Shown in pieces: positions 3,108 to 53,735 of a stretch of 55,864 nucleotides of DNA. The DNA lies in the IMG/VR virus record IMGVR_UViG_3300018063_000005, positions 1 to 55,864 of that record. One strand, given 5' to 3'. The translations under genes were made by a program, and so were the position numbers. Under the pieces are notes generated by a model. The model was not told where the DNA came from, did not search any database, and worked only from the letters and a program-made list of their open reading frames with translations. Each line of letters starts with the position of its first letter. Position 1 is the first letter of the stretch. The DNA is from a virus.

Positions 3108-4208
3108 CTATTCCTCGCGGGCGAGCAGCTTGCGCGCGCCCTTCCTGGTGGTGACCTGACGGCTGAACTGGGTGATGTCCGCCGCGTCGACCTCGAACCC
3201 GTGCCGCTCCGCGTACAGCCGGAAGAGGCCCTCCCAGTCCGTCACGAACGCGATGCTGTCCTTGTCCTTCTTCCACGTGATCTTGGTGGCGCCGGCGAGG
3301 ATCCCCGTCGCGTCGCCGATGGCGAGCTGCACATGGATCTTCCACTTCTCCTCTTCGGCGAGCCACGCCTCGCGGCTCTTCTTCGACTCGAGCCACTTCG
3401 CGATCGCCTCGGCCTGCTCCTCGTTCGCGAGGACGAACGTCTCGTTCTTCGGCTCGGGATGCTGCAGCTTCAGCCACGCGCGCGCGCGGTCGGAAGGCTC
3501 GATCGGCGGGAGCTCGTTGCCCACCACGTAGCGGTGCCAGACCTCCTCGGAGCGCTCGCGCAGCGCGGCGATGACCTTCTCGTTCGCCTCGAGCTCGTAC
3601 CAGCGCAGCTTCGAGAGCCCGAACTGCGCCACGAGGTCCCACGCCGGGTAGCGTAGGACGCCCATGTAGTGCTGACACTGAACGTAGTAGTCCCTCGGCA
3701 CGCGCAGCGGCGCGCCGGGCTCGCTCCACTGCTCGCGCTTCCACTCGACCGTCTTGACCTCGACGCCCTTGCGGCGGCCCACGACCAGGCGGTCGGGGTG
3801 GCCGGCGAGGAACGGCCGGTCGGCGTCTCGCGCGAACGCGCCGAGCTCGAGCTTCTGCCCGGTGCGCCTCGAGTACTCCTGCGCGATCGGGTCCTCGAAG
3901 AGGTTCCCGAACCGCATGCGCTCGGTCGCGCGGAAGACGGGGAGCATGCCCTTCTTCTCGGCCACCACGTCCCAGAGGTTGCGGTAGGTCGAGAAGCCGG
4001 CGATCGCGGCCGCGTCGGTGCCGCCGATCGACGTGCGCCGCTCCTCGTCGAACTTGGCCTCCTCCGGCGTGAGCTCCACCTCCGCCTCGACGGGCGCGCC
4101 GCGGAACGCCGCGGGGAGCGCCAGGAGCTCGAGCAGCTCCTCGTCGGAGTGGGCCTCGGGGGTCGCCGCGCCGGCGCCGAGGACCTCGGTGGTGGTCGTC
4201 TGCTCCAT
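3108..4208 (-). CDS. YqaJ-type viral exonuclease (RecT partner)
   Basis: This 366-residue protein shows the YqaJ/lambda-exonuclease nuclease motifs in order. They are IGGTDAAAIAG (61-71), FGNLFEDPIAQEY with its conserved Glu (about 100-112), GHPD (136-139), GVEVK as the D/E-x-K metal site (148-152), and the Q..HY helix YYVQCQHYMGVL (174-185). The enzyme degrades one strand of duplex ends to expose substrate for RecT. The first 50 residues are a low-complexity acidic leader. The C-terminal half carries a predicted helical segment, then DATGILAGATKITWKKDKDS. It lies eight bases after the small XRE gene and directly before recT, the usual order of a phage recombination pair. Confidence 0.92.
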   Translation of the reverse strand: MEQTTTTEVLGAGAATPEAHSDEELLELLALPAAFRGAPVEAEVELTPEEAKFDEERRTSIGGTDAAAIAGFSTYRNLWDVVAEKKGMLPVFRATERMRFGNLFEDPIAQEYSRRTGQKLELGAFARDADRPFLAGHPDRLVVGRRKGVEVKTVEWKREQWSEPGAPLRVPRDYYVQCQHYMGVLRYPAWDLVAQFGLSKLRWYELEANEKVIAALRERSEEVWHRYVVGNELPPIEPSDRARAWLKLQHPEPKNETFVLANEEQAEAIAKWLESKKSREAWLAEEEKWKIHVQLAIGDATGILAGATKITWKKDKDSIAFVTDWEGLFRLYAERHGFEVDAADITQFSRQVTTRKGARKLLAREE

Positions 4209-51900: not shown

Positions 51901-52109
51901 CAGTTGCCTCCCATCGTTTCCGCCTCGCCGAACGTGCACGGGCCGCAGAGCCCGGTGATCGGCATCACGGGCGTCGCGCCGCACGTGATGCACTTCATCG
52001 ACCAGTTGGGCTCGACGTCGGCCGAGCATGTCGGGTGGTCCTTCGCCGCCGGCCGCGCGAGCTCGCGCGCGACGTCCTCCCGCGTCGGCGAGCGCACCGT
52101 CTTACCCAC
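51897..52109 (-). CDS. Zinc-ribbon protein
   Basis: This is a 70-residue protein from GTG 52109. SMKCITCGATPVMPITGLC, then GPC, is a four-cysteine zinc ribbon. The N-terminal part is basic-acidic and helical (TREDVARELARPAAKDHP). It overlaps the end of the DUF5131 gene by eight bases. Function unknown. Confidence 0.6.
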   Translation of the reverse strand: MGKTVRSPTREDVARELARPAAKDHPTCSADVEPNWSMKCITCGATPVMPITGLCGPCTFGEAETMGGNW

Positions 52110-52971
52110 GGGTCACCTCCGGAAACTGCTGCATGCGCAGGTCGGCCGGCCACTCCGCCGGTTCGCCGCCCTTCGGATCGGTCTGCGCGAGCACCTCGAG
52201 GCCCGCGGGCGTACGGCCGCGCTTCCCCACGCTGGCGCTGAGGAGCGGCGTGGGGCGCGCCGCGCGCCAGGCTGCCTCGGTCATCACCGGCACTGCGCCG
52301 AGCTGCTTCACGAACACCGCTACGTCGGCGTGGCAGCACTGGTCGACGAGCTCGCGGATCCACGCGACGTCGCACGGCCGCGCTCGGTCCCCGCTCTCGC
52401 CGCCGACGATCACCCAGTGGAGGAGTCCGATCCGCGCCCGACCGCGCGCGCCGAGATCCGCGATGAGCCAGGGTGAGAGGTCCACCGGCCCGAGCAGCGG
52501 CTCGGCCGAGACGAACCGAGCTGTCGCCGGGGCCTCGATGAGGGGCGGGAGACGCTTGAACGCGGCCTCCTGGTTTTCCACGCTCACGCCGAGCCACACG
52601 TTCGGCCAGCCCGCGCCCCAGTCCGCCGGCAGCGCGGCCGCGATCCGCTCCGGGCGCTTCGTGAGGATCTGGTACGTGAGGTGCGGCGTCCGCCGGATGA
52701 TGTCCCACGCGTCCGCGCGCCAGGCGTCGGCCTCCTCGATGAAGAAGTCCGACCAGGAGCACGTGAAGACGCGCGCGGGCTCGGCCCACTTCTTCGACAG
52801 AGGCGCGTTGAAGGTCGGCGGCTTCGAGCGGACCACCTCGTTCGGTCGCTGCCCGTAGCGGATCTTCTCTGAGTACATGTAGCAATTGGCGCAGCCGGCG
52901 GAGACCTTGTGGCAGCCCTGCCACGGGTTCCAGCTATGGTCACACCAAGAGATTGCGGTCTTCTCACCCAT
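52102..52971 (-). CDS. DUF5131/phage Gp37-Gp68 family protein
   Basis: This is a 289-residue protein. The start KTAISWCDHSWNPWQGCHKV, then SAGCANCYMYSEKIRYGQRP, and later TYQILTKRPERIAAALP, NVWLGVSVENQEAAFKRLPP, RFVSAEPLLGPVDL and WVIVGGESGDRARPCDVAWI are the motifs of the Gp37/Gp68 (DUF5131) family. Its three N-terminal cysteines recall radical-SAM-like iron-sulfur sites. The role in phages is unknown. The first codons use rarer AT-ending third bases than the rest. A 13-codon copy of this start (MGETTGIAWTD) lies upstream of the homing endonuclease gene, so the 5' end seems to have been duplicated. Confidence 0.85.
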   Translation of the reverse strand: MGEKTAISWCDHSWNPWQGCHKVSAGCANCYMYSEKIRYGQRPNEVVRSKPPTFNAPLSKKWAEPARVFTCSWSDFFIEEADAWRADAWDIIRRTPHLTYQILTKRPERIAAALPADWGAGWPNVWLGVSVENQEAAFKRLPPLIEAPATARFVSAEPLLGPVDLSPWLIADLGARGRARIGLLHWVIVGGESGDRARPCDVAWIRELVDQCCHADVAVFVKQLGAVPVMTEAAWRAARPTPLLSASVGKRGRTPAGLEVLAQTDPKGGEPAEWPADLRMQQFPEVTRG

Positions 52972-53458
52972 GGAGCTTCGCCTCGCCGTACTTCGCCGTG
53001 AGGGTCGCGACCGCGCACGCCGCGTCGAACTTCTTCGCGATCAGAAGCGGGCATAGCGCACGGCAGAGAGCGAAGACGTCCCTCGCCCCGGAGACTCGCC
53101 ACGCCCAGCACGGACGGCGACCCCGTTTGTCGTGGGCCGCCGCGTGCCCGCCGACGTTACCGATCAGCCACCGGATGATCCCCGCGTCCGTGTTGTAGAC
53201 CGCGACGAATGGCCGGCCGCGCCGAGCGCGGATGCTCCCCTCGCCGTCTACGAGGCCCGCCAGGTAGCCGAGATCGACGCCGTCCGGGATCCTGACGGAG
53301 ACGCGCGAGATGTCGTACTCGCGGGTCTCGTTCGCGACGCGCAGTATCCCGGCGAGCTTCGCCTTGGTCTCGAGCGTATGCTTCCGCCCGAACATCGGGT
53401 TGAGAGCGCCGCTCCGCATTGTGGAAAGTTTTCGCTTCGTCGCTTCGGTGTGCCTCAC
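52964..53458 (-). CDS. LAGLIDADG homing endonuclease with NUMOD3 repeat
   Basis: This is a 164-residue protein from GTG 53458. Residues 7-37 (TKRKLSTMRSGALNPMFGRK, HTLETKAKLAG) match the NUMOD3 DNA-binding motif of intron endonucleases. LGYLAGLVDGEGSIRARRG (63-81) is the LAGLIDADG helix with its catalytic acidic residue. One motif means it should act as a dimer. Its start overlaps by GTGA the stop of a 13-codon ORF that copies the start of the DUF5131 gene; its stop is two bases before the real DUF5131 start. It therefore looks inserted into that gene. Confidence 0.9.
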   Translation of the reverse strand: MRHTEATKRKLSTMRSGALNPMFGRKHTLETKAKLAGILRVANETREYDISRVSVRIPDGVDLGYLAGLVDGEGSIRARRGRPFVAVYNTDAGIIRWLIGNVGGHAAAHDKRGRRPCWAWRVSGARDVFALCRALCPLLIAKKFDAACAVATLTAKYGEAKLHG

Positions 53459-53496
53459 GTCCTGTCCGTCCACGCGATGCCCGTCGTCTCGCCCAT
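53455..53496 (-). pseudogene. 13-codon remnant of a DUF5131 5' end
   Basis: ATG 53496 with a GAGG behind it encodes MGETTGIAWTDRT and then stops. Seven of the first 11 residues match the start of the intact DUF5131 protein (MGEKTAISWCD). The stop TGA overlaps the GTG start of the homing endonuclease. It appears to be the displaced original start of the DUF5131 gene, now used to bring ribosomes to the endonuclease gene. Confidence 0.6.
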
Positions 53497-53504
53497 CGTG
53501 CGCC

Positions 53505-53735
53505 TCAGAGGACCTGGCGGAGGTCGATGATCCGGGAGCCGTTGCGCAGCTCCGTCGGCGGCGCCGTCTCGCGCAGCTCGCGCTCGAAGGCGGACGCGTC
53601 GGCGGTGAGCGGCACCGCGAGGCCCGTGACAAAGACGTGCACCTCAATCCCGCCGTCGGTCGTGCCCTTCCAGAGACGCGCGGGCGCGCCGTTGTAGGTC
53701 GTGAGCTTCTCCGTCGGCTCGATGGTGATCCGCAT
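53505..53735 (-). CDS. Hypothetical 76-residue protein
   Basis: RITIEPTEKLTTYNGAPARL, then WKGTTDGGIEVHVFVTGLAV, is a strand-rich start, followed by FERELRETAP and RIIDLRQVL. The pattern (T-x-Y-x-G-x-P-x-R-x-W-x-G-T-T-x2-G) matches a common small phage protein of unknown role. Its stop is eight bases before the DUF5131 remnant. Confidence 0.6.
   Translation of the reverse strand: MRITIEPTEKLTTYNGAPARLWKGTTDGGIEVHVFVTGLAVPLTADASAFERELRETAPPTELRNGSRIIDLRQVL

Follow-up and report, generated by a model that had tools for sequence, protein, structure and literature searches.

How did the start of a DUF5131 gene come to stand twice in one phage operon, with an endonuclease gene in between? The question was raised by the window, meaning here the whole stretch of 55,864 nucleotides that was analysed, which is a complete IMG/VR virus record (IMGVR_UViG_3300018063_000005). 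Homing endonucleases normally spare the host gene, as they lie inside introns or inteins or between genes. In the window, a minus-strand run of small phage genes holds in order a 13-codon open reading frame (ORF), an endonuclease ORF, and an intact DUF5131 gene. A preliminary description of this DNA proposed that a mobile endonuclease had entered the 5' end of DUF5131 and had brought along a replacement for it. The proposal was followed up by profile searches, comparison with relatives, and a survey for further cases.

Anatomy of the locus

The features are listed in Table 1. The 13-codon ORF that was said to copy the start of DUF5131 is present and fits the start consensus of about 80 viral relatives, M(G/A)xxTxIxWTDxT-WNPWxGCxKVSxGC; it corresponds to codons 1-13 and ends right before W14 (TGG). 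The stop of the 76-aa upstream gene lies 8 nt ahead of the start of this putative remnant. The stop of the small ORF and the start of the endonuclease gene have GTGA in common (53455-53458), as was noticed earlier. Two other details were misread in the preliminary description. The break was placed past codon 11; since ...WTDxT|WNP... is found in closely related DUF5131 genes, and D-R-T stands ahead of the stop in the remnant, it is placed here after codon 13 (T13|W14). The intact gene (52971-52102, minus strand, 289 aa) was thought to restart two bases past the endonuclease stop, and its start in fact overlaps that stop by 8 nt. The putative element of 525 nt sits between codon T13 (ACG) and codon W14 (TGG) with TG shared, which leaves a 2-nt ambiguity in its position. 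The GTG start of the endonuclease is formed by ACG|TG of the target, and its TGA stop lies within the new DUF5131 start. An alternative in-frame GTG start is found at 53473.

Table 1. Features of the DUF5131 locus, with positions counted from the first nucleotide of the window.
Feature	Position	Strand	Evidence
Upstream gene in the same operon, 76 aa, unknown	53505..53735	-	No Pfam match, no phage relative
Putative remnant of the native DUF5131 5' end, 13 codons MGETTGIAWTDRT plus TGA stop	53455..53496	-	Sequence, DUF5131 start consensus
Inferred inserted element, 525 nt, made up of the endonuclease gene and the replacement 5' coding end	52933..53457	-	Sequence; boundaries analogous to the L361/L460 empty site
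Endonuclease ORF, 164 aa, GTG start	52964..53458	-	ORF, profile matches
NUMOD3 DNA-binding motif, endonuclease residues 2-36	53351..53455	-	PF07460, E=7.6e-11
LAGLIDADG region, endonuclease residues 62-96, motif YLAGLVDGEGSI	53171..53275	-	PF14528, 19 bits (below cut-off); phrog_5046, E=3e-14
Candidate replacement DUF5131 5' end, codons 1-13 MGEKTAISWCDHS	52933..52971	-	Sequence comparison, GC3
8-nt overlap ATGGGTGA of DUF5131 start and endonuclease stop	52964..52971	-	Sequence
Rest of the DUF5131 gene from codon W14 (TGGAACCCG...)	52102..52932	-	PF07505, E=3.9e-67 (whole protein)

Family assignments

The endonuclease had been described as a NUMOD3-LAGLIDADG protein, and the profiles agree. 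Pfam profiles matched NUMOD3 (E=8e-11) and LAGLIDADG_3 (PF14528, E=0.0017), the latter at 19 bits and thus below the gathering cut-off of 22.5 bits; phrog_5046 matched residues 61-147 (E=3e-14), and a LAGLIDADG motif with an acidic catalytic residue (YLAGLVDGEGSI) is present. An AlphaFold2 run without alignment gave a pLDDT of 33. No relatives of the nuclease were found in phages or plasmids, and viral contigs matched it by the NUMOD3 motif only. The product of the intact gene matched PF07505 at 226.7 bits (cut-off 28.9 bits, E=4e-67). Sequence searches of the PDB with the nuclease and with DUF5131 returned nothing significant. A sub-threshold match of the window DUF5131 (52102-52971) to the radical SAM family TIGR04471 was also seen (E=1e-11), and DUF5131 relatives are labelled 'radical SAM' or 'spore photoproduct lyase' in phage records. 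The insertion site is just ahead of the conserved GCxxVSxGCxxC motif of DUF5131.

A native-looking remnant and a foreign-looking start in the window

The remnant and the start of the intact gene are identical at 24 of 39 nt. Downstream DNA identity is at least 60% in 32 relatives, and for 28 of these the remnant is the nearer of the two starts; this comparison covers 39 nt only, in relatives that are non-independent by shared ancestry, and with GC bias possible. The preliminary description also remarked that the 5' codons of the intact gene are less GC-rich, which is borne out by GC3 over codons 2-13: 7/12 in the intact gene vs 12/12 in the remnant, with a lowest 5' value of 0.75 among 25 other high-GC3 DUF5131 genes. 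Because of the nearness of most relatives to the remnant and the odd GC3 of the intact start, it is the remnant that looks native, and the intact gene seems to have a foreign start, as far as sequence comparison goes. The likeness of the remnant to a DUF5131 start is not put down to chance, since it fits the consensus of about 80 relatives and since in a second, independent example, described below, the remnant is 37/41 nt identical to an uninterrupted gene. An arrangement of two unrelated genes, named earlier as the contrary outcome, was not seen; by the consensus, the remnant is a genuine DUF5131 start.

A relative of the window gene with an empty site was searched for and no close one was found, the best viral relatives being at most about 63% identical in a segment; more distant relatives of the window DUF5131 have no insert. 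Among GenBank phages, no close DNA relative of the last 11 kb of the window was found. Entry of the endonuclease together with a replacement 5' end is thus inferred for the window from the anatomy that it has in common with the second example.

A second case with an empty site

A scan of 2.9 million viral contigs for I-x-W-T-(D/E)-x-T followed by TGA gave 115 matches, one of which (L109, extended as L361) lies directly upstream of a DUF5131 gene, and the known cases are thus two, the window and L109/L361. L361 holds the remnant MSDGTKIEWTDAT with its stop, an HNH endonuclease, and an intact DUF5131 gene (ATGGCTGA...) with the same 8-nt overlap as in the window. As the left junction was part of the scan pattern, its recurrence at this site does not count as independent evidence; the pattern put no constraint on the other parts of the L361 layout. 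The L361 nuclease (PF01844, E=1e-9) belongs to another family than the window nuclease.

A related virus, L460, carries an uninterrupted DUF5131 gene (MSDGTTIEWTDATWNPITGC). With blastn, the 41-nt remnant of L361 (1884-1924) matched L460 at 4001-4041 with 90% identity (37/41 nt), and L361 2600-2954 matched L460 4033-4387 with 92.7% identity over 355 nt, from the TGG site (W14) on. The 684 nt between the T13 and W14 codons of L361 are absent in L460. The new start of L361 is identical to L460 at just 19/30 positions, and its nearest counterparts are alleles of the mycobacteriophages Sbash (45/60 nt) and Phayonce (44/60 nt). The new L361 end and these two alleles have a 21-nt insertion between WT and TWNP that is absent in L460 and in Nostoc and Microcystis phages and that, in the new L361 end, would split the target. 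Phages of Microcystis, Nostoc, Rhizobium, Sinorhizobium, Mesorhizobium, and Aurantimonas are similar in DNA to L361 from about position 2600 onwards, which is the TGG site. GC3 of the new L361 end is 7/19, the lowest of its class, as is the 7/12 of the window. The end of the L361 remnant and the switch from foreign to native sequence fall within about 15 nt of the same homologous position.

By these comparisons, the L361 DUF5131 gene is a hybrid of a foreign 5' end and a native rest, because the remnant and the part from W14 on match L460 while the new 5' end is mycobacteriophage-like and has the 21-nt insertion. As to the proposed alignment with endonuclease-free DUF5131 phages, L361 has its empty-site relative in L460, and no such relative was found for the window itself. 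Entry of an endonuclease into the DUF5131 5' end with a replacement end is demonstrated comparatively by L361 vs L460, and the window, from its like anatomy, is read in the same way.

Preferred reading and its alternatives

The best explanation as a whole, to which a probability of about 0.8 is given, is that a mobile endonuclease and a foreign DUF5131 5' end were inserted together at T13|W14 and that a hybrid gene was rebuilt. An insertion of a nuclease plus a foreign 5' end predicts that the joint of the hybrid coincides with the end of the remnant, as is seen in L361; a separate duplication and insertion do not predict this.

The alternative that survives best, though improbable, is that ordinary phage recombination moved a pre-existing endonuclease-DUF5131 pair, so that the remnant would be a ragged left edge made without an endonuclease cut. 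Upstream ORFs often overlap the DUF5131 start by ATGGSTGA, and in Microcystis phage yong2 an HNH gene overlaps DUF5131 by the same 8 nt and has no remnant. However, the yong2 HNH protein has no detectable relation to the L361 HNH protein, and recombination leaves unexplained both the left edge at T13|W14 in the window and in L361 and the resumption of native sequence at that point in L361.

Somewhat less probable still is a tandem duplication, or a recombination of two DUF5131 genes, that left a truncated first copy, with the endonuclease landing between the copies later as a bystander. Phage genomes are mosaic, and two DUF5131 genes can occur in one phage, as in the viral contig L051 and Gordonia phage Bosnia. 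Two independent steps would not, however, predict that the remnant end and the switch in L361 fall within about 15 nt, and in the window an unrelated nuclease is found at the same position. The two genes of L051 are different from each other and lie about 3.9 kb apart (3744 and 7631).

Very improbable is that DUF5131 is interrupted by an intron (group I or II) or an intein, with the remnant as first exon. In favour of this, the reading frame would run on from remnant to gene once the insert was taken out, as 525 and 684 nt are both divisible by three; NUMOD3 is often found in endonucleases of introns; and the window has a sub-threshold TIGR01453 match. Against it, no Rfam intron match was found at E<=1 at the window or L361 locus, in line with the earlier expectation that no splicing joins remnant and gene. 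The nuclease ORF takes up the insert, so that a ribozyme core would not fit, and a whole alternative DUF5131 start stands at the end of the insert. An intein is ruled out by the stop codon between remnant and nuclease and by the separate DUF5131 start.

Proposed mechanism

Under the preferred reading of joint insertion, the mobile endonuclease gene would cut the conserved 5' region of DUF5131 at ...WTDxT|WNP... (ACN|TGG), or make use of a break there, and would enter together with the opening codons of another DUF5131 allele. Codons 1-13 of the native gene would be left upstream as a short ORF whose stop overlaps the endonuclease GTG, and the new 5' end would supply a fresh start codon and so a full-length hybrid DUF5131 protein. 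With the left half of the target changed by the new end and the right half (TGGAACCC) kept, in the window and L361 alike, the occupied gene should resist recutting. The donor would be a phage in which a resistant DUF5131 allele directly follows the endonuclease gene. Repair of the cut recipient would use homology in the conserved TGGAACCC... on the right side, and the left side would be joined without homology, leaving the remnant.

Both nucleases are in the -1 frame of DUF5131, with the GTG start taken from the target ACG|TGG and the stop from the new ATGGSTGA start, so the element would be read from the existing operon and would pass ribosomes on to the rebuilt gene. Ribosomes would move from the remnant to the endonuclease via GTGA and then to DUF5131 via ATGGSTGA; from the GTGA overlap, it is plausible that ribosomes for the endonuclease are loaded at the old start, as was suggested earlier. 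The 8-nt ATGGSTGA overlap with upstream ORFs is widespread in DUF5131 genes (e.g., L223, L246, L261, and L273), so it is not diagnostic of the element, which would instead keep an existing coupling. An upstream ORF can have its stop within the conserved start ATGGSTGA (M-G/A-D/E), in a manner that resembles translational coupling.

A more general proposal is put forward tentatively, at slightly less than even odds: that phage mobile units composed of an endonuclease and a cleavage-resistant 5' gene end home into a conserved gene and rebuild it by a new start codon rather than by an intron or intein, and that unrelated LAGLIDADG and HNH nucleases adopted this design independently at the same codon boundary. 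Rebuilding the front of the gene with a foreign end that also hides the target would be another phage solution to the sparing of the host gene. It predicts chimeric phage genes whose first codons are of other ancestry than the rest, and its signature in gene calling would be a tiny ORF that copies the start of the next-but-one gene. The origin of cleavage immunity would become directly testable on short DNA substrates.

Comparison with known systems

Mobile ORFs with a foreign C-terminal gene end have been described in fungal mitochondria, in atp6 of Allomyces and in atp6, atp9, cox2, and nad3 of Glomus; in Glomus, identity to a relative is 91-98% for the native ends and 64-81% for the inserted ones, and the hybrid genes are transcribed (PMC3630166). 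As in those elements, an endonuclease and a foreign gene end are inserted at the DUF5131 locus on the reading preferred here, the native end is left as a remnant, a hybrid gene results, and different nuclease families are in use (PMC3630166). The fungal ORFs replace the 3' end, in mitochondria, and have the nuclease downstream of the rebuilt gene (PMC3630166). In the phages studied here it is the 5' end that is concerned, and the gene is restored by means of a new start codon and an operon-style overlap. The fungal parallel drawn in the preliminary description is thus apt as to replacement gene ends, which are real, but of opposite polarity. The features of gene-end-replacing ORFs (a nuclease with a foreign end, a remnant, and a hybrid gene) are found in L361 and, more weakly, in the window.

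The 'introns with N-terminal duplication' of Tremella fuciformis are also mobile and also involve a host gene copy and partial foreign replacement, but their duplicated piece resembles the exon after the element, so that the downstream gene part is replaced, despite the name (PMC7315562). The free-standing endonucleases SegF and MobE of phage T4 likewise lie beside a conserved phage gene without intron or intein and transfer flanking sequence by co-conversion; they are located between genes and usually far from the cut site, whereas here the nuclease is inside its presumed target gene, with a remnant and a replacement end (PMC2988022). In Aeh1 nrdA with mobE and T4 gene 60 with mobA, a nuclease is also found inside a coding sequence, but those genes are left in pieces, while DUF5131 is rebuilt here as one full-length gene (PMC2988022). 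In the open-licence literature searched, no report was found of a phage endonuclease replacing a 5' gene end or of gene-end replacement in phages, and DUF5131 was not named. Homing of this intron-less, 5'-end-replacing kind in phages would be the 5' mirror image of the known fungal 3'-end replacement, with mobility and cleavage as predictions.

Occurrence at the DUF5131 locus

The arrangement is rare at the DUF5131 locus. When the regions upstream of 243 distinct viral DUF5131 starts were surveyed for remnants or motifs of nucleases, no case was found besides L109. The exact pattern of remnant plus TGA had 17 matches in about 85,000 prokaryote genomes, none of them shown with an endonuclease before a restarted DUF5131 gene, and a wider junction (TGH) in 385 genomes of one class had one match. 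Four of the 17 were rejected, being DUF5131 genes in which TGA replaces the W14 codon, and the single match to the wider junction is among the same four. When other NUMOD3 genes were put to a general test for duplicated gene starts around them, the outcome was noise only. Microcystis phage yong2 was rejected as a third case, as it lacks a remnant and its target is intact.

In yong2 (vB_MweS-yong2, OM681334.1; L492:1849-2508), the HNH gene is directly upstream of an intact DUF5131 gene with an 8-nt overlap and an intact WTEATWNP, a donor-like layout. The bacterial DUF5131 genes with TGA for the W14 TGG, in which the frame continues (L343:3491; L345:3978, minus strand; L349:5960, minus strand; and L357:12), have either nonsense mutations or TGA reassignment. 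A further viral contig (L021:3563-4834, IMGVR_UViG_3300033148_003082; G002:C1:55411-56619) has an HNH_3 ORF inside a DUF5131 gene in another reading frame. The DUF5131 frame of L021 is open for all 423 codons and was kept in 0 of 20,000 synonymous-position shuffles of the nuclease; the L021 nuclease may be tolerated as an expressed loop without an intron or intein.
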